Source: Micromussa lordhowensis
Taxonomy: Eukaryota > Cnidaria > Anthozoa > Scleractinia > Lobophylliidae
Length of the DNA: 64,000 nt
Direction: 5' to 3'
Assembly (NCBI GenBank): GCA_964020085.1
Contig: OZ026598.1
Coordinates: 10,331,024 to 10,395,023, forward strand
In this document: positions 18,191 through 64,000 of the stretch, in pieces
Numbering within the stretch: the stretch's first letter is position 1
Layout: each line of letters begins with the position of its first letter
Notes under the pieces: model-generated
Databases searched by the model: none
Told to the model about the DNA's origin: nothing
Seen by the model: only the letters and a program-made list of their open reading frames with translations
Made by a program: the position numbers and the translations under genes

Positions 18191-18283
18191 TTTAGTATAT
18201 ACACAGGAAGTGATCTCAACAACATTTTCAGAAGGAAACCATTAAAAATTGATTTAATTGATCTCTCAATTCATGCGTGGATT

Positions 18284-18389
18284 GGATAAAAATTAGTGAC
18301 AGGCCTGCACGGACTCCCTGCGTGATTTAACTGTAACTGAATAGAGATAAGTGACAGGTCTTCACGGATTTCCTGCGCGATTTAACTGT
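18284..18389 (-). repeat. Duplicated 3' UTR hairpin repeat of the PLE
   Basis: Two copies, 18284-18334 and 18335-18389, share a 40-bp core with five differences (from AGTGACAGG to GATTTAACTGT on the + strand). On the RNA strand each can form a four-pair stem around a nine-base loop: CACG with CGTG in one, CGCG with CGTG (one G-U pair) in the other. The same block ends every unit, truncated or not. It is a plausible reverse transcriptase recognition site at the RNA 3' end; that role is inferred. Confidence 0.75.
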
Positions 18390-18401
18390 AAATGAATGCC
18401 T

Positions 18402-21035
18402 TCATAACTTGGCTTTGACGAGCATGTCTGTAAGAGATTTACCTCTTCTGTATGATAGGATAGGCGGATTCTTGAAGATAGTGTTCAGCAAAGGCTGATT
18501 TTGTATTAGGCCCCAGTTTTGCATGAGTATATTTTTAAGGTTGCGCACCGATGGGTGGTATGTTGTGACAAATGGCAAGATTTGTTTGCGTGCTTTTGCT
18601 TTTTGTTGGAGTGCCGACTGTCTTCCTGCGAAGCTGACTTCTGATAACGTTGTTTGTATCATTTCGTTAGGATAGCCGCGCGTGGTGAGGCGCGATTTAA
18701 AATTTGCGATACTGTCATTAAAGACTGTTTCAGAAGAGTTTGTTCTCAGAAGTCTAAGGGCTTCACCTTTAATAAAACCTTTTTTAACGCCTGGTGGGTG
18801 GCTCGAGGTAAAATGTGTGTACTGAAAGGTTTCAGTCGGCTTGTAATGTGTTCGGATGTCAAGGATCGATTCGTTTCTGAATCTTTCTCCTTTAGTTATG
18901 ATTGTGTCGAGAAATGTTATTTCCATCTCTGAGATTTCAGCCGTGAATTTGATTGTAGGGTGGAAGTTGTTAGCTTGTTTTATGAATAGGTCTATTTCCT
19001 GTCTGTTAGAGTCCCACAGTGAGAAAATGTCGTCAATATATCGTTTCCACTTTGTCGGTTTTGTTTTGCTTTGATTTATCAATTTTGTTTCTATTTCCGC
19101 CATGAAGATGTTGGCAAATGCAACTGCCATTTTCGTACCCATTGCGGTTCCATGGGTTTGGAGGTAATTTTTTCCAATAAATTGGAATGAATTTTCTTTA
19201 AGGATAAGGCAAAGCATTTCTTTGAGATAGTGGGATGGGATGGGAGGGTTGTAGTTGTGAAATTTTTCGTATGCTTTGCATACCGTTGTAATACCCTCCT
19301 CTTGCGGTATGTTTGTATACAAGCTTGTTACATCCATAGATACCAAAATAGTATTTTGAGAGACCTTTGTCTTCTCTATAAAGTTTATGAAGTGTGTTGT
19401 ATCCTTAAGATACGATCTCTGTGTCTGTGCAATCGGCTGTAGTAATTTGTCCACAAACGATGATAGTCTTTCTGTAGGGCCTTCGCAGCCCGAAATAATC
19501 GGTCTTCCGACCGGATTTGGTTTGTGGATTTTAGTAAGGGTATAGAATATAGGGATTCTTGGAGGATTGCGTGTTTGAGAAAACCATTTTTTTGTCATGT
19601 CATCAATATAGGTATTCCGGTGGAGTCGTGTGACAAGCTCATTAACTCTTTGTAATGTTTCTACCGCCATGGCGTTTTCGAGAGGTTTATAATGTTCTCT
19701 ATTGTTGAGATGAGTTTGAGCTTCTTGTATTTTGTCACACTTGTTCATTATGACGGTTGTTGTTCCTTTATCTGCCTTTTTGAAATTGATTTCAGTGTTG
19801 TCCACAAGCTCTGTAAGAGCTTTGTATTCGTTGTGTGACAGATTGTTTTTAGGTTTTGATGGTTTGATCTCTGCAAGTTGGATTTTGACACTTTCCAAGT
19901 AGCTTTCAAGGGCAACTGACTTTTGAACCGGTGGTACCCAGTCTGATTTGACGTGAAACGGGTGCGGTTCTGTATTTTTTGTGTGGAATATGTATTGTAG
20001 TCGCATTCGTCTTGCGAATTTTTCGAAGTCTTGCAAGAGTTGGCGTCTAATATTGTTCTCCTCTGTCACCGGTGTCGGGACAAATTTGAGCCCTTTCGAA
20101 ATAACGTTGACTTGGTTGTCAGTTAGTTGGAGATTGGAGAGGTTTTTAATGAATCTCTCGTTTGACTTTCTTTGTGTGGCAATCCGTTTTTGAGCATAGC
20201 ATGCTCGGCGCTGTTTGCGCCTTATGTTTGCGTTGAACCCTGTTCCTTTTTGGGGCCCCTTTACGGTGGTATGATTTTCAGGAAAGAGACTTTTGTATTT
20301 CTCAAGATCTTTATTGTTTGCAGATGTCTGCAACACATGTGTGTACAATATTTGTTTAAGCTCGTTGAAATCTTGCTGTAATTTTTCAACCTTATTTACA
20401 TCGTAATTTACAATGTTTTCTGTGTTCGCCGAATGCGACTGTTCTCGCGTCGACTTATTTACAGAATTGCTGGCAGTTTCGCTACTGTTTTTAAAGAACT
20501 TAGCCTTTTTGAATTTGCTTTCTTGGCTTTCTAGGCGCCTTTTGTGGTAGCGCGTTAGTGCGCTGACGAAGCCTTGTTCTGCTTGTTGTTTGATCTCCTT
20601 TATTTCCTTGAGAAATGTGTCGTCCGGCGGGATGTTAGCCCTTGCCGAGTATTGGAAGGATTTTGGGCAGGTCTTCTTGTTCATGTGCTCTTCAAGTTTC
20701 CTGATGGAATCCTTGGATTTTCTGATGTTAGTCTCTAAAGAGGCTATGTCCATGTATTTACGTTTCCTGCTTGGCCTTTGGTTTTCAGCAGACGTTTTAG
20801 GCTGGCTGTTCTCTCGTTTGTTATGGTAGTAGGTTTTGTGCCTTGGTTCTATTTGTGATGCTGGGGGACTCTCTTCATTTGCAGAATCCTCCAATTCGTG
20901 TTTGCTGTTGTATAGCAAATCGAGTTCATCCTTGGGAGGTATTCCCTCTGGTGTTTTGGGTATGCCAATGTCGTCGTTTACATCATCGTATCCTGGCGAT
21001 GGCGAGAGATACTTCTGTAGGATGTTGTCTGTCAT
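18402..21035 (-). CDS. Penelope-like reverse transcriptase without endonuclease, 877 aa (unit 1)
   Basis: This protein copies element RNA into DNA at a chromosomal 3' end. The start is the first ATG in frame (MTDNILQKYL); a TAG lies upstream in the same frame. Residues 1-260 are polar and lysine-rich with a likely nuclear localisation signal (RPSRKRK, ~87-93) and coiled-coil-like helices. The PLE-specific DKG motif is at ~420-424 (KADKG). RT motifs follow: RPIIS ~511-515, VSMDVTSLYTNIP with catalytic Asp ~568, HGTAMGTKMA ~628-637, YIDDIF with the catalytic Asp pair ~668-669, and FLDT ~708-711, then a thumb-like region. The protein stops at LVKAKL, exactly where endonuclease-bearing PLEs continue into a GIY-YIG domain; none is present at the N-terminus either. 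Residue 46 is His here. Confidence 0.93.
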   Translation of the reverse strand: MTDNILQKYLSPSPGYDDVNDDIGIPKTPEGIPPKDELDLLYNSKHELEDSANEESPPASQIEPRHKTYYHNKRENSQPKTSAENQRPSRKRKYMDIASLETNIRKSKDSIRKLEEHMNKKTCPKSFQYSARANIPPDDTFLKEIKEIKQQAEQGFVSALTRYHKRRLESQESKFKKAKFFKNSSETASNSVNKSTREQSHSANTENIVNYDVNKVEKLQQDFNELKQILYTHVLQTSANNKDLEKYKSLFPENHTTVKGPQKGTGFNANIRRKQRRACYAQKRIATQRKSNERFIKNLSNLQLTDNQVNVISKGLKFVPTPVTEENNIRRQLLQDFEKFARRMRLQYIFHTKNTEPHPFHVKSDWVPPVQKSVALESYLESVKIQLAEIKPSKPKNNLSHNEYKALTELVDNTEINFKKADKGTTTVIMNKCDKIQEAQTHLNNREHYKPLENAMAVETLQRVNELVTRLHRNTYIDDMTKKWFSQTRNPPRIPIFYTLTKIHKPNPVGRPIISGCEGPTERLSSFVDKLLQPIAQTQRSYLKDTTHFINFIEKTKVSQNTILVSMDVTSLYTNIPQEEGITTVCKAYEKFHNYNPPIPSHYLKEMLCLILKENSFQFIGKNYLQTHGTAMGTKMAVAFANIFMAEIETKLINQSKTKPTKWKRYIDDIFSLWDSNRQEIDLFIKQANNFHPTIKFTAEISEMEITFLDTIITKGERFRNESILDIRTHYKPTETFQYTHFTSSHPPGVKKGFIKGEALRLLRTNSSETVFNDSIANFKSRLTTRGYPNEMIQTTLSEVSFAGRQSALQQKAKARKQILPFVTTYHPSVRNLKNILMQNWGLIQNQPLLNTIFKNPPILSYRRGKSLTDMLVKAKL

Positions 21036-21064
21036 TATCAATGGTGTTTGATAATATATGTATG

Positions 21065-21125
21065 GTCTCCAGCAAGACCGGCGGTTTCGATTCTGTACGA
21101 ATCTCTTCAGTTGCTATTTACTGAC
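21065..21125 (-). ncRNA. Type I hammerhead ribozyme, PLE unit 1
   Basis: Read on the - strand, outer GUC (21125-21123) pairs with GAC at the end. Stem I AGCAA (21115-21111) pairs with UUGCU (21075-21071). The core CUGAAGA is at 21110-21104. Stem II GAUUC/GAAUC is closed by loop GUACA, then GAA (21088-21086). Stem III ACC/GGU has loop GCC, and the cleavage-site base is C at 21076. All invariant core bases are present, including G10.1-C11.1 and A15.1-U16.1; position 7 is A, which the motif tolerates. Stems II and III are closed and stem I is open with an internal loop, the short-stem-III form known from PLEs. Predicted cleavage falls between 21076 and 21075, 40 nt before the ATG. Confidence 0.9.
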
Positions 21126-21195
21126 AACAGTAATGTGTGTAGGAATAGTAGAGCAAGTTCTCAGTTCTATTCCTGCCTAAGTTGTGACGGGCGAC

Positions 21196-21299
21196 CCTTT
21201 TATATCTGCAAGAGCAATTAGTGAGGATCGAAAATTGCGTATTATCATTGGCCCATTCCCTATGGAAGGGAACCAATCACCACAGTGTATTTTCGATCC
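21196..21299 (-). promoter_or_regulatory. PLE internal promoter: CCAAT palindrome and TATA box (unit 1)
   Basis: On the - strand ATATAAAAGG (21205-21196) is a good TATA box about 70 bp before the hammerhead, placing the expected start near 21165-21175. Upstream lies a palindrome: GGATCGAAAAT (21225-21235) mirrors ATTTTCGATCC (21289-21299), and within it ATTGG (21247-21251) mirrors CCAAT (21273-21277), so a CCAAT box is presented on both strands. The same block occurs at 24477-24580, 27758-27861, 31039-31142, 37108-37211, 42068-42171, 45349-45452, 50845-50948, 56341-56444 and 59622-59725. Truncated units lack it. Confidence 0.65.
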
Positions 21300-21682
21300 G
21301 CTCTTTTTTGAAGCTCGGTTGTGTTTGTTTTGAAGGTTCTATTCGTGTAAAATTTTGATAGCAGTTTTGAAAACCTCAAGGTATACACTAAAGCATGTAC
21401 ACAATATGTTATGCATCCTAGCCTTGCAAAAATGAGGCCAAGGCGTGTTTGCGTAGTGCTCGCAATCGTGATTTTTGTGTTGTACATTTGGGAATTGTGT
21501 ACTGTATATGTTCAACTGTGTGGTTTCACACTGGGACGGGGCCTGTCTGGGATAGCTCAACATTGGATAAAAATTAGTGACAGGCCTGCACGGACTCCCT
21601 GCGTGATTTAACTGTAACTGAATAGAGATAAGTGACAGGTCTTCACGGATTTCCTGCGCGATTTAACTGTAAATGAATGCCT

Positions 21683-24316
21683 TCATAACTTGGCTTTGAC
21701 GAGCATGTCTGTAAGAGATTTACCTCTTCTGTATGATAGGATAGGCGGATTCTTGAAGATAGTGTTCAGCAAAGGCTGATTTTGTATTAGGCCCCAGTTT
21801 TGCATGAGTATATTTTTAAGGTTGCGCACCGATGGGTGGTATGTTGTGACAAATGGCAAGATTTGTTTGCGTGCTTTTGCTTTTTGTTGGAGTGCCGACT
21901 GTCTTCCTGCGAAGCTGACTTCTGATAACGTTGTTTGTATCATTTCGTTAGGATAGCCGCGCGTGGTGAGGCGCGATTTAAAATTTGCGATACTGTCATT
22001 AAAGACTGTTTCAGAAGAGTTTGTTCTCAGAAGTCTAAGGGCTTCACCTTTAATAAAACCTTTTTTAACGCCTGGTGGGTGGCTCGAGGTAAAATGTGTG
22101 TACTGAAAGGTTTCAGTCGGCTTGTAATGTGTTCGGATGTCAAGGATCGATTCGTTTCTGAATCTTTCTCCTTTAGTTATGATTGTGTCGAGAAATGTTA
22201 TTTCCATCTCTGAGATTTCAGCCGTGAATTTGATTGTAGGGTGGAAGTTGTTAGCTTGTTTTATGAATAGGTCTATTTCCTGTCTGTTAGAGTCCCACAG
22301 TGAGAAAATGTCGTCAATATATCGTTTCCACTTTGTCGGTTTTGTTTTGCTTTGATTTATCAATTTTGTTTCTATTTCCGCCATGAAGATGTTGGCAAAT
22401 GCAACTGCCATTTTCGTACCCATTGCGGTTCCATGGGTTTGGAGGTAATTTTTTCCAATAAATTGGAATGAATTTTCTTTAAGGATAAGGCAAAGCATTT
22501 CTTTGAGATAGTGGGATGGGATGGGAGGGTTGTAGTTGTGAAATTTTTCGTATGCTTTGCATACCGTTGTAATACCCTCCTCTTGCGGTATGTTTGTATA
22601 CAAGCTTGTTACATCCATAGATACCAAAATAGTATTTTGAGAGACCTTTGTCTTCTCTATAAAGTTTATGAAGTGTGTTGTATCCTTAAGATACGATCTC
22701 TGTGTCTGTGCAATCGGCTGTAGTAATTTGTCCACAAACGATGATAGTCTTTCTGTAGGGCCTTCGCAGCCCGAAATAATCGGTCTTCCGACCGGATTTG
22801 GTTTGTGGATTTTAGTAAGGGTATAGAATATAGGGATTCTTGGAGGATTGCGTGTTTGAGAAAACCATTTTTTTGTCATGTCATCAATATAGGTATTCCG
22901 GTGGAGTCGTGTGACAAGCTCATTAACTCTTTGTAATGTTTCTACCGCCATGGCGTTTTCGAGAGGTTTATAATGTTCTCTATTGTTGAGATGAGTTTGA
23001 GCTTCTTGTATTTTGTCACACTTGTTCATTATGACGGTTGTTGTTCCTTTATCTGCCTTTTTGAAATTGATTTCAGTGTTGTCCACAAGCTCTGTAAGAG
23101 CTTTGTATTCGTTGTGTGACAGATTGTTTTTAGGTTTTGATGGTTTGATCTCTGCAAGTTGGATTTTGACACTTTCCAAGTAGCTTTCAAGGGCAACTGA
23201 CTTTTGAACCGGTGGTACCCAGTCTGATTTGACGTGAAACGGGTGCGGTTCTGTATTTTTTGTGTGGAATATGTATTGTAGTCGCATTCGTCTTGCGAAT
23301 TTTTCGAAGTCTTGCAAGAGTTGGCGTCTAATATTGTTCTCCTCTGTCACCGGTGTCGGGACAAATTTGAGCCCTTTCGAAATAACGTTGACTTGGTTGT
23401 CAGTTAGTTGGAGATTGGAGAGGTTTTTAATGAATCTCTCGTTTGACTTTCTTTGTGTGGCAATCCGTTTTTGAGCATAGCATGCTCGGCGCTGTTTGCG
23501 CCTTATGTTTGCGTTGAACCCTGTTCCTTTTTGGGGCCCCTTTACGGTGGTATGATTTTCAGGAAAGAGACTTTTGTATTTCTCAAGATCTTTATTGTTT
23601 GCAGATGTCTGCAACACATGTGTGTACAATATTTGTTTAAGCTCGTTGAAATCTTGCTGTAATTTTTCAACCTTATTTACATCGTAATTTACAATGTTTT
23701 CTGTGTTCGCCGAATGCGACTGTTCTCGCGTCGACTTATTTACAGAATTGCTGGCAGTTTCGCTACTGTTTTTAAAGAACTTAGCCTTTTTGAATTTGCT
23801 TTCTTGGCTTTCTAGGCGCCTTTTGTGGTAGCGCGTTAGTGCGCTGACGAAGCCTTGTTCTGCTTGTTGTTTGATCTCCTTTATTTCCTTGAGAAATGTG
23901 TCGTCCGGCGGGATGTTAGCCCTTGCCGAGTATTGGAAGGATTTTGGGCAGGTCTTCTTGTTCATGTGCTCTTCAAGTTTCCTGATGGAATCCTTGGATT
24001 TTCTGATGTTAGTCTCTAAAGAGGCTATGTCCATGTATTTACGTTTCCTGCTTGGCCTTTGGTTTTCAGCAGACGTTTTAGGCTGGCTGTTCTCTCGTTT
24101 GTTATGGTAGTAGGTTTTGTGCCTTGGTTCTATTTGTGATGCTGGGGGACTCTCTTCATTTGCAGAATCCTCCAATTCGTGTTTGCTGTTGTATAGCAAA
24201 TCGAGTTCATCCTTGGGAGGTATTCCCTCTGGTGTTTTGGGTATGCCAATGTCGTCGTTTACATCATCGTATCCTGGCGATGGCGAGAGATACTTCTGTA
24301 GGATGTTGTCTGTCAT
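21683..24316 (-). CDS. PLE reverse transcriptase, 877 aa (unit 2)
   Basis: Intact; the translation is identical to unit 1, including His46. Confidence 0.92.
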   Translation of the reverse strand: MTDNILQKYLSPSPGYDDVNDDIGIPKTPEGIPPKDELDLLYNSKHELEDSANEESPPASQIEPRHKTYYHNKRENSQPKTSAENQRPSRKRKYMDIASLETNIRKSKDSIRKLEEHMNKKTCPKSFQYSARANIPPDDTFLKEIKEIKQQAEQGFVSALTRYHKRRLESQESKFKKAKFFKNSSETASNSVNKSTREQSHSANTENIVNYDVNKVEKLQQDFNELKQILYTHVLQTSANNKDLEKYKSLFPENHTTVKGPQKGTGFNANIRRKQRRACYAQKRIATQRKSNERFIKNLSNLQLTDNQVNVISKGLKFVPTPVTEENNIRRQLLQDFEKFARRMRLQYIFHTKNTEPHPFHVKSDWVPPVQKSVALESYLESVKIQLAEIKPSKPKNNLSHNEYKALTELVDNTEINFKKADKGTTTVIMNKCDKIQEAQTHLNNREHYKPLENAMAVETLQRVNELVTRLHRNTYIDDMTKKWFSQTRNPPRIPIFYTLTKIHKPNPVGRPIISGCEGPTERLSSFVDKLLQPIAQTQRSYLKDTTHFINFIEKTKVSQNTILVSMDVTSLYTNIPQEEGITTVCKAYEKFHNYNPPIPSHYLKEMLCLILKENSFQFIGKNYLQTHGTAMGTKMAVAFANIFMAEIETKLINQSKTKPTKWKRYIDDIFSLWDSNRQEIDLFIKQANNFHPTIKFTAEISEMEITFLDTIITKGERFRNESILDIRTHYKPTETFQYTHFTSSHPPGVKKGFIKGEALRLLRTNSSETVFNDSIANFKSRLTTRGYPNEMIQTTLSEVSFAGRQSALQQKAKARKQILPFVTTYHPSVRNLKNILMQNWGLIQNQPLLNTIFKNPPILSYRRGKSLTDMLVKAKL

Positions 24317-24345
24317 TATCAATGGTGTTTGATAATATATGTATG

Positions 24346-24406
24346 GTCTCCAGCAAGACCGGCGGTTTCGATTCTGTACGAATCTCTTCAGTTGCTATTT
24401 ACTGAC
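24346..24406 (-). ncRNA. Hammerhead ribozyme, PLE unit 2
   Basis: Core, stems and cleavage base are identical to unit 1; predicted cut between 24357 and 24356. Confidence 0.9.
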
Positions 24407-24963
24407 AACAGTAATGTGTGTAGGAATAGTAGAGCAAGTTCTCAGTTCTATTCCTGCCTAAGTTGTGACGGGCGACCCTTTTATATCTGCAAGAGCAATT
24501 AGTGAGGATCGAAAATTGCGTATTATCATTGGCCCATTCCCTATGGAAGGGAACCAATCACCACAGTGTATTTTCGATCCGCTCTTTTTTGAAGCTCGGT
24601 TGTGTTTGTTTTGAAGGTTCTATTCGTGTAAAATTTTGATAGCAGTTTTGAAAACCTCAAGGTATACACTAAAGCATGTACACAATATGTTATGCATCCT
24701 AGCCTTGCAAAAATGAGGCCAAGGCGTGTTTGCGTAGTGCTCGCAATCGTGATTTTTGTGTTGTACATTTGGGAATTGTGTACTGTATATGTTCAACTGT
24801 GTGGTTTCACACTGGGACGGGGCCTGTCTGGGATAGCTCAACATTGGATAAAAATTAGTGACAGGCCTGCACGGACTCCCTGCGTGATTTAACTGTAACT
24901 GAATAGAGATAAGTGACAGGTCTTCACGGATTTCCTGCGCGATTTAACTGTAAATGAATGCCT

Positions 24964-27597
24964 TCATAACTTGGCTTTGACGAGCATGTCTGTAAGAGAT
25001 TTACCTCTTCTGTATGATAGGATAGGCGGATTCTTGAAGATAGTGTTCAGCAAAGGCTGATTTTGTATTAGGCCCCAGTTTTGCATGAGTATATTTTTAA
25101 GGTTGCGCACCGATGGGTGGTATGTTGTGACAAATGGCAAGATTTGTTTGCGTGCTTTTGCTTTTTGTTGGAGTGCCGACTGTCTTCCTGCGAAGCTGAC
25201 TTCTGATAACGTTGTTTGTATCATTTCGTTAGGATAGCCGCGCGTGGTGAGGCGCGATTTAAAATTTGCGATACTGTCATTAAAGACTGTTTCAGAAGAG
25301 TTTGTTCTCAGAAGTCTAAGGGCTTCACCTTTAATAAAACCTTTTTTAACGCCTGGTGGGTGGCTCGAGGTAAAATGTGTGTACTGAAAGGTTTCAGTCG
25401 GCTTGTAATGTGTTCGGATGTCAAGGATCGATTCGTTTCTGAATCTTTCTCCTTTAGTTATGATTGTGTCGAGAAATGTTATTTCCATCTCTGAGATTTC
25501 AGCCGTGAATTTGATTGTAGGGTGGAAGTTGTTAGCTTGTTTTATGAATAGGTCTATTTCCTGTCTGTTAGAGTCCCACAGTGAGAAAATGTCGTCAATA
25601 TATCGTTTCCACTTTGTCGGTTTTGTTTTGCTTTGATTTATCAATTTTGTTTCTATTTCCGCCATGAAGATGTTGGCAAATGCAACTGCCATTTTCGTAC
25701 CCATTGCGGTTCCATGGGTTTGGAGGTAATTTTTTCCAATAAATTGGAATGAATTTTCTTTAAGGATAAGGCAAAGCATTTCTTTGAGATAGTGGGATGG
25801 GATGGGAGGGTTGTAGTTGTGAAATTTTTCGTATGCTTTGCATACCGTTGTAATACCCTCCTCTTGCGGTATGTTTGTATACAAGCTTGTTACATCCATA
25901 GATACCAAAATAGTATTTTGAGAGACCTTTGTCTTCTCTATAAAGTTTATGAAGTGTGTTGTATCCTTAAGATACGATCTCTGTGTCTGTGCAATCGGCT
26001 GTAGTAATTTGTCCACAAACGATGATAGTCTTTCTGTAGGGCCTTCGCAGCCCGAAATAATCGGTCTTCCGACCGGATTTGGTTTGTGGATTTTAGTAAG
26101 GGTATAGAATATAGGGATTCTTGGAGGATTGCGTGTTTGAGAAAACCATTTTTTTGTCATGTCATCAATATAGGTATTCCGGTGGAGTCGTGTGACAAGC
26201 TCATTAACTCTTTGTAATGTTTCTACCGCCATGGCGTTTTCGAGAGGTTTATAATGTTCTCTATTGTTGAGATGAGTTTGAGCTTCTTGTATTTTGTCAC
26301 ACTTGTTCATTATGACGGTTGTTGTTCCTTTATCTGCCTTTTTGAAATTGATTTCAGTGTTGTCCACAAGCTCTGTAAGAGCTTTGTATTCGTTGTGTGA
26401 CAGATTGTTTTTAGGTTTTGATGGTTTGATCTCTGCAAGTTGGATTTTGACACTTTCCAAGTAGCTTTCAAGGGCAACTGACTTTTGAACCGGTGGTACC
26501 CAGTCTGATTTGACGTGAAACGGGTGCGGTTCTGTATTTTTTGTGTGGAATATGTATTGTAGTCGCATTCGTCTTGCGAATTTTTCGAAGTCTTGCAAGA
26601 GTTGGCGTCTAATATTGTTCTCCTCTGTCACCGGTGTCGGGACAAATTTGAGCCCTTTCGAAATAACGTTGACTTGGTTGTCAGTTAGTTGGAGATTGGA
26701 GAGGTTTTTAATGAATCTCTCGTTTGACTTTCTTTGTGTGGCAATCCGTTTTTGAGCATAGCATGCTCGGCGCTGTTTGCGCCTTATGTTTGCGTTGAAC
26801 CCTGTTCCTTTTTGGGGCCCCTTTACGGTGGTATGATTTTCAGGAAAGAGACTTTTGTATTTCTCAAGATCTTTATTGTTTGCAGATGTCTGCAACACAT
26901 GTGTGTACAATATTTGTTTAAGCTCGTTGAAATCTTGCTGTAATTTTTCAACCTTATTTACATCGTAATTTACAATGTTTTCTGTGTTCGCCGAATGCGA
27001 CTGTTCTCGCGTCGACTTATTTACAGAATTGCTGGCAGTTTCGCTACTGTTTTTAAAGAACTTAGCCTTTTTGAATTTGCTTTCTTGGCTTTCTAGGCGC
27101 CTTTTGTGGTAGCGCGTTAGTGCGCTGACGAAGCCTTGTTCTGCTTGTTGTTTGATCTCCTTTATTTCCTTGAGAAATGTGTCGTCCGGCGGGATGTTAG
27201 CCCTTGCCGAGTATTGGAAGGATTTTGGGCAGGTCTTCTTGTTCATGTGCTCTTCAAGTTTCCTGATGGAATCCTTGGATTTTCTGATGTTAGTCTCTAA
27301 AGAGGCTATGTCCATGTATTTACGTTTCCTGCTTGGCCTTTGGTTTTCAGCAGACGTTTTAGGCTGGCTGTTCTCTCGTTTGTTATGGTAGTAGGTTTTG
27401 TGCCTTGGTTCTATTTGTGATGCTGGGGGACTCTCTTCATTTGCAGAATCCTCCAATTCGTGTTTGCTGTTGTATAGCAAATCGAGTTCATCCTTGGGAG
27501 GTATTCCCTCTGGTGTTTTGGGTATGCCAATGTCGTCGTTTACATCATCGTATCCTGGCGATGGCGAGAGATACTTCTGTAGGATGTTGTCTGTCAT
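24964..27597 (-). CDS. PLE reverse transcriptase, 877 aa (unit 3)
   Basis: Intact ORF, His46 variant. Confidence 0.92.
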   Translation of the reverse strand: MTDNILQKYLSPSPGYDDVNDDIGIPKTPEGIPPKDELDLLYNSKHELEDSANEESPPASQIEPRHKTYYHNKRENSQPKTSAENQRPSRKRKYMDIASLETNIRKSKDSIRKLEEHMNKKTCPKSFQYSARANIPPDDTFLKEIKEIKQQAEQGFVSALTRYHKRRLESQESKFKKAKFFKNSSETASNSVNKSTREQSHSANTENIVNYDVNKVEKLQQDFNELKQILYTHVLQTSANNKDLEKYKSLFPENHTTVKGPQKGTGFNANIRRKQRRACYAQKRIATQRKSNERFIKNLSNLQLTDNQVNVISKGLKFVPTPVTEENNIRRQLLQDFEKFARRMRLQYIFHTKNTEPHPFHVKSDWVPPVQKSVALESYLESVKIQLAEIKPSKPKNNLSHNEYKALTELVDNTEINFKKADKGTTTVIMNKCDKIQEAQTHLNNREHYKPLENAMAVETLQRVNELVTRLHRNTYIDDMTKKWFSQTRNPPRIPIFYTLTKIHKPNPVGRPIISGCEGPTERLSSFVDKLLQPIAQTQRSYLKDTTHFINFIEKTKVSQNTILVSMDVTSLYTNIPQEEGITTVCKAYEKFHNYNPPIPSHYLKEMLCLILKENSFQFIGKNYLQTHGTAMGTKMAVAFANIFMAEIETKLINQSKTKPTKWKRYIDDIFSLWDSNRQEIDLFIKQANNFHPTIKFTAEISEMEITFLDTIITKGERFRNESILDIRTHYKPTETFQYTHFTSSHPPGVKKGFIKGEALRLLRTNSSETVFNDSIANFKSRLTTRGYPNEMIQTTLSEVSFAGRQSALQQKAKARKQILPFVTTYHPSVRNLKNILMQNWGLIQNQPLLNTIFKNPPILSYRRGKSLTDMLVKAKL

Positions 27598-27626
27598 TAT
27601 CAATGGTGTTTGATAATATATGTATG

Positions 27627-27687
27627 GTCTCCAGCAAGACCGGCGGTTTCGATTCTGTACGAATCTCTTCAGTTGCTATTTACTGAC
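27627..27687 (-). ncRNA. Hammerhead ribozyme, PLE unit 3
   Basis: All core bases conserved; predicted cut between 27638 and 27637. Confidence 0.9.
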
Positions 27688-28244
27688 AACAGTAATGTGT
27701 GTAGGAATAGTAGAGCAAGTTCTCAGTTCTATTCCTGCCTAAGTTGTGACGGGCGACCCTTTTATATCTGCAAGAGCAATTAGTGAGGATCGAAAATTGC
27801 GTATTATCATTGGCCCATTCCCTATGGAAGGGAACCAATCACCACAGTGTATTTTCGATCCGCTCTTTTTTGAAGCTCGGTTGTGTTTGTTTTGAAGGTT
27901 CTATTCGTGTAAAATTTTGATAGCAGTTTTGAAAACCTCAAGGTATACACTAAAGCATGTACACAATATGTTATGCATCCTAGCCTTGCAAAAATGAGGC
28001 CAAGGCGTGTTTGCGTAGTGCTCGCAATCGTGATTTTTGTGTTGTACATTTGGGAATTGTGTACTGTATATGTTCAACTGTGTGGTTTCACACTGGGACG
28101 GGGCCTGTCTGGGATAGCTCAACATTGGATAAAAATTAGTGACAGGCCTGCACGGACTCCCTGCGTGATTTAACTGTAACTGAATAGAGATAAGTGACAG
28201 GTCTTCACGGATTTCCTGCGCGATTTAACTGTAAATGAATGCCT

Positions 28245-30878: not shown

Positions 30879-30907
30879 TATCAATGGTGTTTGATAATAT
30901 ATGTATG

Positions 30908-30968
30908 GTCTCCAGCAAGACCGGCGGTTTCGATTCTGTACGAATCTCTTCAGTTGCTATTTACTGAC
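30908..30968 (-). ncRNA. Hammerhead ribozyme, PLE unit 4
   Basis: All core bases conserved; predicted cut between 30919 and 30918. Confidence 0.9.
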
Positions 30969-31404
30969 AACAGTAATGTGTGTAGGAATAGTAGAGCAAG
31001 TTCTCAGTTCTATTCCTGCCTAAGTTGTGACGGGCGACCCTTTTATATCTGCAAGAGCAATTAGTGAGGATCGAAAATTGCGTATTATCATTGGCCCATT
31101 CCCTATGGAAGGGAACCAATCACCACAGTGTATTTTCGATCCGCTCTTTTTTGAAGCTCGGTTGTGTTTGTTTTGAAGGTTCTATTCGTGTAAAATTTTG
31201 ATAGCAGTTTTGAAAACCTCAAGGTATACACTAAAGCATGTACACAATATGTTATGCATCCTAGCCTTGCAAAAATGAGGCCAAGGCGTGTTTGCGTAGT
31301 GCTCGCAATCGTGATTTTTGTGTTGTACATTTGGGAATTGTGTACTGTATATGTTCAACTGTGTGGTTTCACACTGGGACGGGGCCTGTCTGGGATAGCT
31401 CAAC

Positions 31405-36947: not shown

Positions 36948-36976
36948 TATCAATGGTGTTTGATAATATATGTATG

Positions 36977-50684: not shown

Positions 50685-50713
50685 TATCAATGGTGTTTGA
50701 TAATATATGTATG

Positions 50714-50774: not shown

Positions 50775-51210
50775 AACAGTAATGTGTGTAGGAATAGTAG
50801 AGCAAGTTCTCAGTTCTATTCCTGTCTAAGTTGTGACGGGCGACCCTTTTATATCTGCAAGAGCAATTAGTGAGGATCGAAAATTGCGTATTATCATTGG
50901 CCCATTCCCTATGGAAGGGAACCAATCACCACAGTGTATTTTCGATCCGCTCTTTTTTGAAGCTCGGTTGTGTTTGTTTTGAAGGTTCTATTCGTGTAAA
51001 ATTTTGATAGCAGTTTTGAAAACCTCAAGGTATACACTAAAGCATGTACACAATATGTTATGCATCCTAGCCTTGCAAAAATGAGGCCAAGGCGTGTTTG
51101 CGTAGTGCTCGCAATCGTGATTTTTGTGTTGTACATTTGGGAATTGTGTACTGTATATGTTCAACTGTGTGGTTTCACACTGGGACGGGGCCTGTCTGGG
51201 ATAGCTCAAC

Positions 51211-53425: not shown

Positions 53426-53546
53426 ATTGGATAAAAATTAGTGACAGGCCTGCACGGACTCCCTGCGTGATTTAACTGTAACTGAATAGAGATAAGTGAC
53501 AGGTCTTCACGGATTTCCTGCGCGATTTAACTGTAAATGAATGCCT

Positions 53547-56180: not shown

Positions 56181-56209
56181 TATCAATGGTGTTTGATAAT
56201 ATATGTATG

Positions 56210-56270
56210 GTCTCCAGCAAGACCGGCGGTTTCGATTCTGTACGAATCTCTTCAGTTGCTATTTACTGAC
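56210..56270 (-). ncRNA. Hammerhead ribozyme, PLE unit 14
   Basis: All core bases conserved; predicted cut between 56221 and 56220. Confidence 0.9.
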
Positions 56271-56827
56271 AACAGTAATGTGTGTAGGAATAGTAGAGCA
56301 AGTTCTCAGTTCTATTCCTGCCTAAGTTGTGACGGGCGACCCTTTTATATCTGCAAGAGCAATTAGTGAGGATCGAAAATTGCGTATTATCATTGGCCCA
56401 TTCCCTATGGAAGGGAACCAATCACCACAGTGTATTTTCGATCCGCTCTTTTTTGAAGCTCGGTTGTGTTTGTTTTGAAGGTTCTATTCGTGTAAAATTT
56501 TGATAGCAGTTTTGAAAACCTCAAGGTATACACTAAAGCATGTACACAATATGTTATGCATCCTAGCCTTGCAAAAATGAGGCCAAGGCGTGTTTGCGTA
56601 GTGCTCGCAATCGTGATTTTTGTGTTGTACATTTGGGAATTGTGTACTGTATATGTTCAACTGTGTGGTTTCACACTGGGACGGGGCCTGTCTGGGATAG
56701 CTCAACATTGGATAAAAATTAGTGACAGGCCTGCACGGACTCCCTGCGTGATTTAACTGTAACTGAATAGAGATAAGTGACAGGTCTTCACGGATTTCCT
56801 GCGCGATTTAACTGTAAATGAATGCCT

Positions 56828-59461
56828 TCATAACTTGGCTTTGACGAGCATGTCTGTAAGAGATTTACCTCTTCTGTATGATAGGATAGGCGGATTCTTG
56901 AAGATAGTGTTCAGCAAAGGCTGATTTTGTATTAGGCCCCAGTTTTGCATGAGTATATTTTTAAGGTTGCGCACCGATGGGTGGTATGTTGTGACAAATG
57001 GCAAGATTTGTTTGCGTGCTTTTGCTTTTTGTTGGAGTGCCGACTGTCTTCCTGCGAAGCTGACTTCTGATAACGTTGTTTGTATCATTTCGTTAGGATA
57101 GCCGCGCGTGGTGAGGCGCGATTTAAAATTTGCGATACTGTCATTAAAGACTGTTTCAGAAGAGTTTGTTCTCAGAAGTCTAAGGGCTTCACCTTTAATA
57201 AAACCTTTTTTAACGCCTGGTGGGTGGCTCGAGGTAAAATGTGTGTACTGAAAGGTTTCAGTCGGCTTGTAATGTGTTCGGATGTCAAGGATCGATTCGT
57301 TTCTGAATCTTTCTCCTTTAGTTATGATTGTGTCGAGAAATGTTATTTCCATCTCTGAGATTTCAGCCGTGAATTTGATTGTAGGGTGGAAGTTGTTAGC
57401 TTGTTTTATGAATAGGTCTATTTCCTGTCTGTTAGAGTCCCACAGTGAGAAAATGTCGTCAATATATCGTTTCCACTTTGTCGGTTTTGTTTTGCTTTGA
57501 TTTATCAATTTTGTTTCTATTTCCGCCATGAAGATGTTGGCAAATGCAACTGCCATTTTCGTACCCATTGCGGTTCCATGGGTTTGGAGGTAATTTTTTC
57601 CAATAAATTGGAATGAATTTTCTTTAAGGATAAGGCAAAGCATTTCTTTGAGATAGTGGGATGGGATGGGAGGGTTGTAGTTGTGAAATTTTTCGTATGC
57701 TTTGCATACCGTTGTAATACCCTCCTCTTGCGGTATGTTTGTATACAAGCTTGTTACATCCATAGATACCAAAATAGTATTTTGAGAGACCTTTGTCTTC
57801 TCTATAAAGTTTATGAAGTGTGTTGTATCCTTAAGATACGATCTCTGTGTCTGTGCAATCGGCTGTAGTAATTTGTCCACAAACGATGATAGTCTTTCTG
57901 TAGGGCCTTCGCAGCCCGAAATAATCGGTCTTCCGACCGGATTTGGTTTGTGGATTTTAGTAAGGGTATAGAATATAGGGATTCTTGGAGGATTGCGTGT
58001 TTGAGAAAACCATTTTTTTGTCATGTCATCAATATAGGTATTCCGGTGGAGTCGTGTGACAAGCTCATTAACTCTTTGTAATGTTTCTACCGCCATGGCG
58101 TTTTCGAGAGGTTTATAATGTTCTCTATTGTTGAGATGAGTTTGAGCTTCTTGTATTTTGTCACACTTGTTCATTATGACGGTTGTTGTTCCTTTATCTG
58201 CCTTTTTGAAATTGATTTCAGTGTTGTCCACAAGCTCTGTAAGAGCTTTGTATTCGTTGTGTGACAGATTGTTTTTAGGTTTTGATGGTTTGATCTCTGC
58301 AAGTTGGATTTTGACACTTTCCAAGTAGCTTTCAAGGGCAACTGACTTTTGAACCGGTGGTACCCAGTCTGATTTGACGTGAAACGGGTGCGGTTCTGTA
58401 TTTTTTGTGTGGAATATGTATTGTAGTCGCATTCGTCTTGCGAATTTTTCGAAGTCTTGCAAGAGTTGGCGTCTAATATTGTTCTCCTCTGTCACCGGTG
58501 TCGGGACAAATTTGAGCCCTTTCGAAATAACGTTGACTTGGTTGTCAGTTAGTTGGAGATTGGAGAGGTTTTTAATGAATCTCTCGTTTGACTTTCTTTG
58601 TGTGGCAATCCGTTTTTGAGCATAGCATGCTCGGCGCTGTTTGCGCCTTATGTTTGCGTTGAACCCTGTTCCTTTTTGGGGCCCCTTTACGGTGGTATGA
58701 TTTTCAGGAAAGAGACTTTTGTATTTCTCAAGATCTTTATTGTTTGCAGATGTCTGCAACACATGTGTGTACAATATTTGTTTAAGCTCGTTGAAATCTT
58801 GCTGTAATTTTTCAACCTTATTTACATCGTAATTTACAATGTTTTCTGTGTTCGCCGAATGCGACTGTTCTCGCGTCGACTTATTTACAGAATTGCTGGC
58901 AGTTTCGCTACTGTTTTTAAAGAACTTAGCCTTTTTGAATTTGCTTTCTTGGCTTTCTAGGCGCCTTTTGTGGTAGCGCGTTAGTGCGCTGACGAAGCCT
59001 TGTTCTGCTTGTTGTTTGATCTCCTTTATTTCCTTGAGAAATGTGTCGTCCGGCGGGATGTTAGCCCTTGCCGAGTATTGGAAGGATTTTGGGCAGGTCT
59101 TCTTGTTCATGTGCTCTTCAAGTTTCCTGATGGAATCCTTGGATTTTCTGATGTTAGTCTCTAAAGAGGCTATGTCCATGTATTTACGTTTCCTGCTTGG
59201 CCTTTGGTTTTCAGCAGACGTTTTAGGCTGGCTGTTCTCTCGTTTGTTATGGTAGTAGGTTTTGTGCCTTGGTTCTATTTGTGATGCTGGGGGACTCTCT
59301 TCATTTGCAGAATCCTCCAATTCGTATTTGCTGTTGTATAGCAAATCGAGTTCATCCTTGGGAGGTATTCCCTCTGGTGTTTTGGGTATGCCAATGTCGT
59401 CGTTTACATCATCGTATCCTGGCGATGGCGAGAGATACTTCTGTAGGATGTTGTCTGTCAT
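56828..59461 (-). CDS. PLE reverse transcriptase, 877 aa (unit 15)
   Basis: Intact ORF, Tyr46. Confidence 0.92.
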   Translation of the reverse strand: MTDNILQKYLSPSPGYDDVNDDIGIPKTPEGIPPKDELDLLYNSKYELEDSANEESPPASQIEPRHKTYYHNKRENSQPKTSAENQRPSRKRKYMDIASLETNIRKSKDSIRKLEEHMNKKTCPKSFQYSARANIPPDDTFLKEIKEIKQQAEQGFVSALTRYHKRRLESQESKFKKAKFFKNSSETASNSVNKSTREQSHSANTENIVNYDVNKVEKLQQDFNELKQILYTHVLQTSANNKDLEKYKSLFPENHTTVKGPQKGTGFNANIRRKQRRACYAQKRIATQRKSNERFIKNLSNLQLTDNQVNVISKGLKFVPTPVTEENNIRRQLLQDFEKFARRMRLQYIFHTKNTEPHPFHVKSDWVPPVQKSVALESYLESVKIQLAEIKPSKPKNNLSHNEYKALTELVDNTEINFKKADKGTTTVIMNKCDKIQEAQTHLNNREHYKPLENAMAVETLQRVNELVTRLHRNTYIDDMTKKWFSQTRNPPRIPIFYTLTKIHKPNPVGRPIISGCEGPTERLSSFVDKLLQPIAQTQRSYLKDTTHFINFIEKTKVSQNTILVSMDVTSLYTNIPQEEGITTVCKAYEKFHNYNPPIPSHYLKEMLCLILKENSFQFIGKNYLQTHGTAMGTKMAVAFANIFMAEIETKLINQSKTKPTKWKRYIDDIFSLWDSNRQEIDLFIKQANNFHPTIKFTAEISEMEITFLDTIITKGERFRNESILDIRTHYKPTETFQYTHFTSSHPPGVKKGFIKGEALRLLRTNSSETVFNDSIANFKSRLTTRGYPNEMIQTTLSEVSFAGRQSALQQKAKARKQILPFVTTYHPSVRNLKNILMQNWGLIQNQPLLNTIFKNPPILSYRRGKSLTDMLVKAKL

Positions 59462-59490
59462 TATCAATGGTGTTTGATAATATATGTATG

Positions 59491-59551
59491 GTCTCCAGCA
59501 AGACCGGCGGTTTCGATTCTGTACGAATCTCTTCAGTTGCTATTTACTGAC
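59491..59551 (-). ncRNA. Hammerhead ribozyme, PLE unit 15
   Basis: All core bases conserved; predicted cut between 59502 and 59501. Confidence 0.9.
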
Positions 59552-59987
59552 AACAGTAATGTGTGTAGGAATAGTAGAGCAAGTTCTCAGTTCTATTCCT
59601 GCCTAAGTTGTGACGGGCGACCCTTTTATATCTGCAAGAGCAATTAGTGAGGATCGAAAATTGCGTATTATCATTGGCCCATTCCCTATGGAAGGGAACC
59701 AATCACCACAGTGTATTTTCGATCCGCTCTTTTTTGAAGCTCGGTTGTGTTTGTTTTGAAGGTTCTATTCGTGTAAAATTTTGATAGCAGTTTTGAAAAC
59801 CTCAAGGTATACACTAAAGCATGTACACAATATGTTATGCATCCTAGCCTTGCAAAAATGAGGCCAAGGCGTGTTTGCGTAGTGCTCGCAATCGTGATTT
59901 TTGTGTTGTACATTTGGGAATTGTGTACTGTATATGTTCAACTGTGTGGTTTCACACTGGGACGGGGCCTGTCTGGGATAGCTCAAC

Positions 59988-62161
59988 ATTGGATAAAAAT
60001 TAGTGACAGGCCTGCACGGACTCCCTGCGTGATTTAACTGTAACTGAATAGAGATAAGTGACAGGTCTTCACGGATTTCCTGCGCGATTTAACTGTAAAT
60101 GAATGCCTTCATAACTTGGCTTTGACGAGCATGTCTGTAAGAGATTTACCTCTTCTGTATGATAGGATAGGCGGATTCTTGAAGATAGTGTTCAGCAAAG
60201 GCTGATTTTGTATTAGGCCCCAGTTTTGCATGAGTATATTTTTAAGGTTGCGCACCGATGGGTGGTATGTTGTGACAAATGGCAAGATTTGTTTGCGTGC
60301 TTTTGCTTTTTGTTGGAGTGCCGACTGTCTTCCTGCGAAGCTGACTTCTGATAACGTTGTTTGTATCATTTCGTTAGGATAGCCGCGCGTGGTGAGGCGC
60401 GATTTAAAATTTGCGATACTGTCATTAAAGACTGTTTCAGAAGAGTTTGTTCTCAGAAGTCTAAGGGCTTCACCTTTAATAAAACCTTTTTTAACGCCTG
60501 GTGGGTGGCTCGAGGTAAAATGTGTGTACTGAAAGGTTTCAGTCGGCTTGTAATGTGTTCGGATGTCAAGGATCGATTCGTTTCTGAATCTTTCTCCTTT
60601 AGTTATGATTGTGTCGAGAAATGTTATTTCCATCTCTGAGATTTCAGCCGTGAATTTGATTGTAGGGTGGAAGTTGTTAGCTTGTTTTATGAATAGGTCT
60701 ATTTCCTGTCTGTTAGAGTCCCACAGTGAGAAAATGTCGTCAATATATCGTTTCCACTTTGTCGGTTTTGTTTTGCTTTGATTTATCAATTTTGTTTCTA
60801 TTTCCGCCATGAAGATGTTGGCAAATGCAACTGCCATTTTCGTACCCATTGCGGTTCCATGGGTTTGGAGGTAATTTTTTCCAATAAATTGGAATGAATT
60901 TTCTTTAAGGATAAGGCAAAGCATTTCTTTGAGATAGTGGGATGGGATGGGAGGGTTGTAGTTGTGAAATTTTTCGTATGCTTTGCATACCGTTGTAATA
61001 CCCTCCTCTTGCGGTATGTTTGTATACAAGCTTGTTACATCCATAGATACCAAAATAGTATTTTGAGAGACCTTTGTCTTCTCTATAAAGTTTATGAAGT
61101 GTGTTGTATCCTTAAGATACGATCTCTGTGTCTGTGCAATCGGCTGTAGTAATTTGTCCACAAACGATGATAGTCTTTCTGTAGGGCCTTCGCAGCCCGA
61201 AATAATCGGTCTTCCGACCGGATTTGGTTTGTGGATTTTAGTAAGGGTATAGAATATAGGGATTCTTGGAGGATTGCGTGTTTGAGAAAACCATTTTTTT
61301 GTCATGTCATCAATATAGGTATTCCGGTGGAGTCGTGTGACAAGCTCATTAACTCTTTGTAATGTTTCTACCGCCATGGCGTTTTCGAGAGGTTTATAAT
61401 GTTCTCTATTGTTGAGATGAGTTTGAGCTTCTTGTATTTTGTCACACTTGTTCATTATGACGGTTGTTGTTCCTTTATCTGCCTTTTTGAAATTGATTTC
61501 AGTGTTGTCCACAAGCTCTGTAAGAGCTTTGTATTCGTTGTGTGACAGATTGTTTTTAGGTTTTGATGGTTTGATCTCTGCAAGTTGGATTTTGACACTT
61601 TCCAAGTAGCTTTCAAGGGCAACTGACTTTTGAACCGGTGGTACCCAGTCTGATTTGACGTGAAACGGGTGCGGTTCTGTATTTTTTGTGTGGAATATGT
61701 ATTGTAGTCGCATTCGTCTTGCGAATTTTTCGAAGTCTTGCAAGAGTTGGCGTCTAATATTGTTCTCCTCTGTCACCGGTGTCGGGACAAATTTGAGCCC
61801 TTTCGAAATAACGTTGACTTGGTTGTCAGTTAGTTGGAGATTGGAGAGGTTTTTAATGAATCTCTCGTTTGACTTTCTTTGTGTGGCAATCCGTTTTTGA
61901 GCATAGCATGCTCGGCGCTGTTTGCGCCTTATGTTTGCGTTGAACCCTGTTCCTTTTTGGGGCCCCTTTACGGTGGTATGATTTTCAGGAAAGAGACTTT
62001 TGTATTTCTCAAGATCTTTATTGTTTGCAGATGTCTGCAACACATGTGTGTACAATATTTGTTTAAGCTCGTTGAAATCTTGCTGTAATTTTTCAACCTT
62101 ATTTACATCGTAATTTACAATGTTTTCTGTGTTCGCCGAATGCGACTGTTCTCGCGTCGAC
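59988..62161 (-). mobile_element. PLE unit 16, 5'-truncated, 2174 bp
   Basis: Truncated at GCGTCGACTTA; unit 17 joins as GGATAAAA, without the usual ATT, so unit 17 has the shortest 3' end in the array. The exact junction lies within 62161-62165. Confidence 0.9.
60109..62161 (-). pseudogene. Truncated PLE reverse transcriptase (unit 16)
   Basis: Open from about residue 194 (KSTREQ) to the normal stop; N-terminus missing, DKG and RT motifs present. Confidence 0.88.
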
Positions 62162-64000
62162 TTAGGATAAAAATTAGTGACAGGCCTGCACGGACTCCCT
62201 GCGTGATTTAACTGTAACTGAATAGAGATAAGTGACAGGTCTTCACGGATTTCCTGCGCGATTTAACTGTAAATGAATGCCTTCATAACTTGGCTTTGAC
62301 GAGCATGTCTGTAAGAGATTTACCTCTTCTGTATGATAGGATAGGCGGATTCTTGAAGATAGTGTTCAGCAAAGGCTGATTTTGTATTAGGCCCCAGTTT
62401 TGCATGAGTATATTTTTAAGGTTGCGCACCGATGGGTGGTATGTTGTGACAAATGGCAAGATTTGTTTGCGTGCTTTTGCTTTTTGTTGGAGTGCCGACT
62501 GTCTTCCTGCGAAGCTGACTTCTGATAACGTTGTTTGTATCATTTCGTTAGGATAGCCGCGCGTGGTGAGGCGCGATTTAAAATTTGCGATACTGTCATT
62601 AAAGACTGTTTCAGAAGAGTTTGTTCTCAGAAGTCTAAGGGCTTCACCTTTAATAAAACCTTTTTTAACGCCTGGTGGGTGGCTCGAGGTAAAATGTGTG
62701 TACTGAAAGGTTTCAGTCGGCTTGTAATGTGTTCGGATGTCAAGGATCGATTCGTTTCTGAATCTTTCTCCTTTAGTTATGATTGTGTCGAGAAATGTTA
62801 TTTCCATCTCTGAGATTTCAGCCGTGAATTTGATTGTAGGGTGGAAGTTGTTAGCTTGTTTTATGAATAGGTCTATTTCCTGTCTGTTAGAGTCCCACAG
62901 TGAGAAAATGTCGTCAATATATCGTTTCCACTTTGTCGGTTTTGTTTTGCTTTGATTTATCAATTTTGTTTCTATTTCCGCCATGAAGATGTTGGCAAAT
63001 GCAACTGCCATTTTCGTACCCATTGCGGTTCCATGGGTTTGGAGGTAATTTTTTCCAATAAATTGGAATGAATTTTCTTTAAGGATAAGGCAAAGCATTT
63101 CTTTGAGATAGTGGGATGGGATGGGAGGGTTGTAGTTGTGAAATTTTTCGTATGCTTTGCATACCGTTGTAATACCCTCCTCTTGCGGTATGTTTGTATA
63201 CAAGCTTGTTACATCCATAGATACCAAAATAGTATTTTGAGAGACCTTTGTCTTCTCTATAAAGTTTATGAAGTGTGTTGTATCCTTAAGATACGATCTC
63301 TGTGTCTGTGCAATCGGCTGTAGTAATTTGTCCACAAACGATGATAGTCTTTCTGTAGGGCCTTCGCAGCCCGAAATAATCGGTCTTCCGACCGGATTTG
63401 GTTTGTGGATTTTAGTAAGGGTATAGAATATAGGGATTCTTGGAGGATTGCGTGTTTGAGAAAACCATTTTTTTGTCATGTCATCAATATAGGTATTCCG
63501 GTGGAGTCGTGTGACAAGCTCATTAACTCTTTGTAATGTTTCTACCGCCATGGCGTTTTCGAGAGGTTTATAATGTTCTCTATTGTTGAGATGAGTTTGA
63601 GCTTCTTGTATTTTGTCACACTTGTTCATTATGACGGTTGTTGTTCCTTTATCTGCCTTTTTGAAATTGATTTCAGTGTTGTCCACAAGCTCTGTAAGAG
63701 CTTTGTATTCGTTGTGTGACAGATTGTTTTTAGGTTTTGATGGTTTGATCTCTGCAAGTTGGATTTTGACACTTTCCAAGTAGCTTTCAAGGGCAACTGA
63801 CTTTTGAACCGGTGGTACCCAGTCTGATTTGACGTGAAACGGGTGCGGTTCTGTATTTTTTGTGTGGAATATGTATTGTAGTCGCATTCGTCTTGCGAAT
63901 TTTTCGAAGTCTTGCAAGAGTTGGCGTCTAATATTGTTCTCCTCTGTCACCGGTGTCGGGACAAATTTGAGCCCTTTCGAAATAACGTTGACTTGGTTGT
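62162..64000 (-). mobile_element. PLE unit 17, cut by the window edge
   Basis: The 3' end is present; the unit is still matching the full-length element at position 64000, so its 5' end cannot be judged. Confidence 0.9.
62283..64000 (-). CDS. PLE reverse transcriptase, partial at window edge (unit 17)
   Basis: The frame is open to the edge and includes DKG, all RT motifs and the normal stop. It may be complete or truncated beyond the window. Confidence 0.85.
   Translation of the reverse strand, partial: NQVNVISKGLKFVPTPVTEENNIRRQLLQDFEKFARRMRLQYIFHTKNTEPHPFHVKSDWVPPVQKSVALESYLESVKIQLAEIKPSKPKNNLSHNEYKALTELVDNTEINFKKADKGTTTVIMNKCDKIQEAQTHLNNREHYKPLENAMAVETLQRVNELVTRLHRNTYIDDMTKKWFSQTRNPPRIPIFYTLTKIHKPNPVGRPIISGCEGPTERLSSFVDKLLQPIAQTQRSYLKDTTHFINFIEKTKVSQNTILVSMDVTSLYTNIPQEEGITTVCKAYEKFHNYNPPIPSHYLKEMLCLILKENSFQFIGKNYLQTHGTAMGTKMAVAFANIFMAEIETKLINQSKTKPTKWKRYIDDIFSLWDSNRQEIDLFIKQANNFHPTIKFTAEISEMEITFLDTIITKGERFRNESILDIRTHYKPTETFQYTHFTSSHPPGVKKGFIKGEALRLLRTNSSETVFNDSIANFKSRLTTRGYPNEMIQTTLSEVSFAGRQSALQQKAKARKQILPFVTTYHPSVRNLKNILMQNWGLIQNQPLLNTIFKNPPILSYRRGKSLTDMLVKAKL

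Follow-up and report, generated by a model that had tools for sequence, protein, structure and literature searches.

Array organization and genomic position

The window analysed here is a stretch of 64,000 bp from the stony coral Micromussa lordhowensis, placed by whole-genome search at C4:10331024-10395023 on scaffold C4 (39,880,871 bp), and most of it is occupied by a tandem array of a Penelope-like element (PLE) whose reverse transcriptase (RT) open reading frame (ORF) contains no recognizable endonuclease (EN). All results come from one genome assembly (580.8 Mb, 1,383 contigs) and from sequence alone. Seventeen units start within the window, in the same orientation and without spacers, and cover 71% of it; ten are full length, and six are complete 5'-truncated units of 1394 (two), 1679, 2215 (two), and 2174 bp. 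Coordinates below refer to the window unless a scaffold is named.

18282..64000, on to C4:10398922, minus strand: tandem copies of the endonuclease-less PLE, oriented with 3' ends leftward
18282..21562, minus strand: unit 1, full length, 3281 bp
21563..24843, minus strand: unit 2, full length
24844..28124, minus strand: unit 3, full length
28125..31405, minus strand: unit 4, full length
31406..32799, minus strand: unit 5, 5'-truncated, 1394 bp, class a
32800..34193, minus strand: unit 6, 5'-truncated, class a, junction as in unit 5 except for one single-nucleotide polymorphism (SNP)
34194..37474, minus strand: unit 7, full length
37475..39153, minus strand: unit 8, 5'-truncated, 1679 bp, class b
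39154..42434, minus strand: unit 9, full length
42435..45715, minus strand: unit 10, full length
45716..47930, minus strand: unit 11, 5'-truncated, 2215 bp, class c
47931..51211, minus strand: unit 12, full length
51212..53426, minus strand: unit 13, 5'-truncated, class c
53427..56707, minus strand: unit 14, full length
56708..59988, minus strand: unit 15, full length
59989..62162, minus strand: unit 16, 5'-truncated, 2174 bp, class d
62163..64000, minus strand: unit 17, class d, clipped by the window end; its scaffold length is 2174 bp

The array runs 3,899 bp beyond the window and ends at C4:10398922 in a 274-bp last unit, a 3' remnant fused to flanking DNA. In total, the C4 array measures 49,618 bp and comprises 19 units, 11 of them full length at 3,281 bp, with three variable sites across its whole length. 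The preliminary description of this DNA had claimed a long, pure head-to-tail array of 17 units without spacers, filling more than 70% of the window and continuing past its end, and these measurements bear it out.

The array is bordered by a long direct repeat.

17244..18281, no strand: left copy of the flanking direct repeat, 1,033 bp plus 5 nt; right copy at C4:10398918-10399955

The 1,033 bp to the left of the array (window 17,249-18,281) recur to its right with 100% identity, and the borders of the repeat coincide exactly with both ends of the array. Beyond the 1,033 bp, 5 nt (TATGT) are common to the flanking repeat and the truncated last unit. No N bases occur between the window start and the right copy. 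A genome search with 1,000 bases of the repeat, in which the best 40 of 806 candidates were scored, returned just these two full-length matches among the matches listed. Portions of the repeat are dispersed: bases 1-654 (window 17281-17934) occur at 14 other places among the matches listed, one at 97% and the rest at 98%, with a fifteenth listed match in split form, one piece of it at 99%, while bases ~790-1000 recur at 23 other places among the matches listed, at 95-98%. From its sequence, the repeat is read as a giant target-site duplication, and because a direct repeat of ~1 kb flanks the array, the array appears to have entered an interstitial site. The assembly yielded no empty allele for the C4 site.

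The C4 array is interstitial, with both flanks present on the 39.88-Mb scaffold. Growth by addition to a chromosome end, as in the Athena/Terminon PLEs or the fly element HeT-A, would likewise give units of like orientation and 5' truncation with intact 3' ends. The array, however, lies at 10.35 of 39.88 Mb between two flanks, carries the ~1-kb direct repeat at both sides, and shares its window with no TTAGGG or CCCTAA tandem repeats. The earlier hint of a terminal location is therefore abandoned, and a telomeric array is scarcely credible: barring a misjoined scaffold, it is ruled out by the position of the array, its two flanks, and the flanking repeat.

Several minor features accompany the array and its surroundings. 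A coiled-coil ORF of 332 aa (window 16290-17303) overlaps the border of the 1-kb duplication, and an imperfect 111-bp palindrome resembling a miniature inverted-repeat transposable element (window 18081-18191), with 23 other places at 95-98% among the matches listed, lies ~90 bp from the insertion point, where it is a possible fragile site. The left flank contains short tandem repeats with 228-bp and 21-bp periods (window 710-1265, 4410-4469, and 6535-6606).

Related arrays and copies in the genome

Three further arrays exist beside that on C4, namely on C507, C2, and C8. The C507 array, of the window family, has 21 units on a separate 54,000-bp contig and extends off it; its left flank shows no match to the C4 left flank. 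The C2 array (C2:34790440-34827090) consists of 11 full-length units of 3,228 bp each and ends in a truncated one, and its family is ~92% identical in DNA to the window family. The C8 array, from C8:28704024 on, has units of 3,216-3,217 bp, with a protein 57% identical. An exact core junction pattern, drawn from these families and missing divergent ones such as C14, occurs 38 times genome-wide, of which 37 lie within the four arrays (C2 11, C4 array 11, C507 9, C8 6), while a reversed control gave 0. Tandem organization is thus represented by the four arrays and one solitary junction.

Long near-identical arrays assemble poorly, and the separate contig C507 measures exactly 54,000 bp, so an assembly artefact has to be considered, in which the assembler gained or lost units or left a contig overlap unmerged as the 1-kb repeat. 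Against this, positions are marked by distinct truncation classes and SNPs, the borders of the 1-kb repeat are the array ends, the 5-nt microhomology at the join is unlike an overlap, and C2 and C8 supply separate instances of such arrays, which together make an artefact very unlikely.

The solitary core junction (G000:C4:26564402-26564454), the sole one outside the four arrays, has the opposite orientation and C2-subfamily sequence. At L029 (G000:C3:212060-217872), a broken copy stands head-to-head with an inverted copy, their 5' ends joined and other DNA interrupting, as if both break ends had been extended. In the 3' untranslated region (UTR; window 18282-18402), the window family has two ~53-nt repeats in comparison with L021, and the C2 unit is 53 bp shorter than the window unit, which fits one copy of this repeat.

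Reverse transcriptase ORF and its relatives

Each full-length unit in the window carries one long ORF, and a putative promoter element precedes it.

18402..21035, minus strand: RT ORF, unit 1 copy, 877 codons counted from ATG, then a stop; found again in units 2, 3, 4, 7, 9, 10, 12, 14, and 15
24478..24485, minus strand: putative TATA box TATAAAAG, unit 2 example, 169 nt upstream of the ATG

The ORFs of the ten full-length window units are all open, with 879 codons counted from TTG and 877 from ATG, in keeping with the ten intact 877-codon ORFs described before. By array, the ORF is open in 11/11 full-length units of C4, 10/10 in C507 (one of these in a 5'-truncated unit that retains the whole ORF), and 9/11 in C2. 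No second long ORF was found in the unit, the next longest stop-to-stop frames having 107 codons.

No GIY-YIG domain was detected in the window ORF by Pfam at 0.001 or at E<=1, which supports the earlier claim of an endonuclease-less RT, probably of PLE type. For the full-length ORF, no Pfam family was recovered at 0.001, and at E<=1 still no RT family appeared; RVT_1 exceeded its cut-off on the ORFs of two truncated units (36.6 and 36.0 vs 29.6 bits). The RT motifs of the ORF are provisionally assigned to PLEs. Across the RT part, the ORF aligns with P0121, a protein with RT and GIY-YIG, at 33-36% identity.

The homologue set combined the best 120 of 132 and the best 120 of 244 matches, together 137 proteins, and the named homologues among the matches listed belong to Montipora, Acropora, Pocillopora, Oculina, and Nematostella. 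The query C-terminus is reached by 87 of the 137 listed homologues, including Montipora P0050, Oculina P0057, and Acropora P0069 among the matches listed, and 50 fall short; 71 of the 137 share the end residue of the query, and three (P0064, P0076, and P0121) extend >10 residues past it. P0121 alone has GIY-YIG among the matches listed. A tree was built from 35 proteins, selected from 138, together with the C2 array ORF; 32 of its 36 rows form one group (99/98), while the four outer rows are long and of unsure placement, and three of these four are likewise without GIY-YIG in these records. Scans of viral and GTDB sequences yielded 13 and 61 stretches that fit a pattern, none of which coded for a relative.

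When the C4 and C2 families are compared, the ratio of nonsynonymous to synonymous substitution rates (dN/dS) is 0.23 overall, 0.16 in the RT part, and 0.41 in the N-terminal part, and the value between C2 and a broken C8 single copy is 0.68. The low ratio between the two array families indicates, from sequence comparison, that the ORF is under constraint.

Truncated units and unit junctions

The C4 and C507 arrays contain 18 internal truncated units (7 and 11, respectively) in 11 classes, with breakpoints measured on one unit per class. In 11/11 classes, the 5' end is lost and the 3' end kept, the latter with a tolerance of 9 nt; 9-18 nt of common 3' context are retained, while the 5' breakpoints spread across offsets 327-2776. 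Random deletion was ruled out as the source of these units, since the 3' context is constant while the 5' breakpoints scatter, and the best reading of the breakpoints is that truncated units were made by reverse transcription. Microhomology at the truncation joins sums to 17 nt, with class 661, which a SNP had brought to a computed score of -6, entered as 0; a simulation that used approximate 3' offsets gave 8.5 (P 0.015).

Junctions after full-length units behave differently from these variable de novo joins. They are constant in C4 (11/11), C507 (9/9), and C2 (11/11), and in six cases in C8 by the exact core pattern. Because of this constancy they look like copies of one old junction rather than new joins, a pattern counted in favour of tandem organization as the ancestral state.

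Traces of exchange are also evident. On an alternative account, the RT would have supplied no more than a starting dimer or short tandem insertion, together with the scattered truncated joins, and nearly the whole length of the array would have come from unequal crossing-over, slippage, or gene conversion. Identical truncated units do recur nearby (a,a; c,F,c,F, with F for full length; d,d; 2196 twice; and a 10,077-bp block present twice in C507), SNPs are common to neighbouring units, private SNPs lie in the C2 edge unit, and the constant full-length junctions fit copying from one ancestral junction. What this alternative leaves unexplained are the 11 truncation classes with the 3' end kept, each of which needs a separate RT start, and it is therefore considered possible but rather improbable.

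Cross-junction hairpin

The constant junctions contain a predicted hairpin, with the sites of complementary DNA (cDNA) initiation in or beside its loop.

21526..21606, minus strand: cross-junction hairpin, example of units 2 and 1; 3' arm supplied by the end of unit 2 and 5' arm by the start of unit 1, with the loop between
21561..21566, minus strand: hairpin-loop stretch with cDNA starts in or beside it, sense TTATCC^AATG

RNA across a full-length junction has the same predicted fold in four families (C4, C2, C8, and C14), consisting of an outer helix, an internal loop of GAGTC..GTG against CCCCGTCC, and an inner helix GGCCTGTC/GACAGGCC, which in C14 carries an extra A. The loop is ~30 nt long and holds the cDNA start sites; the starts of single insertions also fall in, or adjoin, this stretch. 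The arms are split over adjacent units, with the 3' arm in one and the 5' arm in the next, so that the apparent template signal would exist only in tandem RNA. Outer-arm pairing within families reaches -12.6 (C4), -11.9 (C8), and -14.0 kcal/mol (C14), and shuffled arms were equally good in 3, 17, and 3 of 2,000 cases, respectively. Across families, C14 and C4 arms pair poorly (-1.2 and -4.6 kcal/mol), but C8 and C4 arms pair well (-12.3 and -8.5 kcal/mol).

The C14 case, L040 (G000:C14:19618481-19618820), is a tandem junction of a further family, with the extra A in its inner helix and an outer helix that pairs with different letters. P0064, from another contig record, overruns the usual stop, and its extra residues fit a translation across a C8-type junction; by this match, a tandem junction appears to be seen in a second record, possibly of the same species.

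Proposed mechanism and insertion sites

The favoured reading, held with somewhat better than even confidence, is that an EN-less Penelope-like lineage primes on free DNA ends at interstitial sites to copy transcripts that span several units, and that unequal exchange amplifies and homogenizes the resulting arrays. It draws on the 5' loss with 3' retention, the 3' ends in or beside the hairpin loop, the low dN/dS, and the flanking ~1-kb repeat, all of which can be read from the sequence. The element is probably autonomous.

Under this reading, transcription would run through several units and give a multi-unit RNA. The RT would recognize the junction hairpin and start internally, in its loop, primed by a free 3'-OH at a break or gap and not by a nick of its own. 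Synthesis would proceed upstream through at least one whole unit and then halt early, giving the order [full-length]n + [truncated]. The cDNA end could then restart on another hairpin by a template jump, producing a truncated|loop junction, or be joined to the target by microhomology, here with ~1 kb duplicated. Later unequal exchange or slippage would duplicate blocks and homogenize the array. Breaks separated by ~1 kb could account for the duplication, as could microhomology-mediated replication re-entry ~1 kb behind a break.

Since the downstream arm would be missing from a lone copy, tandem copies alone would serve well as templates, and the element would stay tandem. The stronger form of this proposal is put forward tentatively, at less than even confidence: an obligately tandem element, with an RT signal divided between two adjacent units, at the close of one and the beginning of the other, no endonuclease, use of breaks at ordinary chromosomal sites, and perhaps multi-unit arrays formed in one event. 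The preliminary description had suspected a dedicated mode of growth, and the apparently RT-made junctions, together with a hairpin completed only by tandem units, lend support to that suspicion.

Several observations weigh against this account. The hairpin comparison covers four junction families in one genome, of which C4 and C2 are close and C14 is represented by one junction; single-sequence folding z-scores are modest (-1.87, -1.98, and -1.43), shuffled sequences fold as well as the 3' UTR when the downstream arm is left off, and C8 3' arms pair with C4 5' arms as well as with their own (-12.3 vs -11.9). No duplication was found within 9.9 kb for the C2 array, where the first 1,000 right-flank bases have no match near the left flank. 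A single insertion on C15 carries a 13-bp duplication and one on C13 a possible 6-bp duplication (TTTATA). Both resemble the products of staggered nicks, so some nicking may act.

No convincing duplication was seen at the C8, C2b, C6, and C8b insertions in the limited flank searched, which in C6 was restricted by Ns. Apparent inverted flank copies at the C6 and C3 insertions were discounted, since they are probably repeats of a dispersed or simple kind.

The C15 duplication would also suit self-targeting, in which target-primed reverse transcription takes place precisely where two units already meet, after nicking by a host endonuclease or one provided in trans. New joins always adjoin the junction-hairpin loop, and PMC11167929 describes a canonical PLE protein that cuts and extends its own ORF-pLTR (pseudo-long terminal repeat) junction DNA in vitro. 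The coral ORF, in contrast, has no endonuclease domain, and joins after full-length units are invariant, which renders self-targeting unlikely. Priming from free DNA ends, with later exchange, is retained as the preferred account.

Comparison with known systems

PLEs are described as tandem or partial-tandem elements in PMC11167929, which also reports for the Poseidon PLE of Anolis carolinensis internal cDNA starts at two adjacent sites, mostly in an AC-rich stem-loop. The coral element resembles canonical EN+ Penelope/Poseidon elements in its probable PLE-type RT, its tandem or partial-tandem units, and an internal cDNA start at slightly variable sites. It differs in lacking GIY-YIG, in lacking a hammerhead match, in forming long arrays, and in its target outcomes, which are a 13-bp or ~1-kb duplication, or none found. 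No Rfam family, hammerhead ribozymes included, matched the window at the gathering score; at E<=5, positions 20900-24950 gave only SNORD14 and Yar_3, both weak and of other families, and no CTGA[T/G]GA hammerhead core was found on either strand of one unit.

EN-deficient PLEs have been described as lying largely at chromosome ends (PMC3846280), and the rotifer Terminons form long telomeric head-to-tail arrays (PMC6431247). The coral element shares with Athena/Terminons an RT ORF without endonuclease, likely priming on free DNA ends, 5' truncation, and long head-to-tail arrays (PMC3846280, PMC6431247). Athena/Terminons are telomeric, with reverse-complement telomeric repeats beside a 3' hammerhead, and have been described with two ORFs (PMC3846280, PMC6431247), whereas the coral element is interstitial, with one long ORF per unit and no telomeric repeats in the window. 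Drosophila HeT-A/TART are also arranged head-to-tail with 3' ends one way, but they are terminal non-LTR (long terminal repeat) elements with poly-A 3' ends (PMC10088271). Template jumping by the R2 RT, as outlined in PMC11371274 and PMC8857657, offers a further parallel, in that continuous cDNA over successive templates would yield head-to-tail copies; R2, however, belongs to the non-LTR elements, inserts site-specifically, and has an endonuclease of its own, and jumping by the coral element is suggested by its junctions alone.

No interstitial EN-less PLE arrays in corals appeared among the titles and abstract openings listed by searches of an open-access library. Known EN-deficient PLE arrays are telomeric; the coral lineage described here appears to insert inside chromosomes, where it forms long arrays. 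The junctions of these arrays would serve as a record of cDNA starts and stops, and the cross-junction hairpin offers a testable reason for the tandemness of PLEs. PLE RTs and telomerase are given a common ancestry in PMC3846280 and PMC6431247, and for this reason an internal loop start from a free DNA end would bear on how telomerase-like synthesis could proceed without a nuclease.

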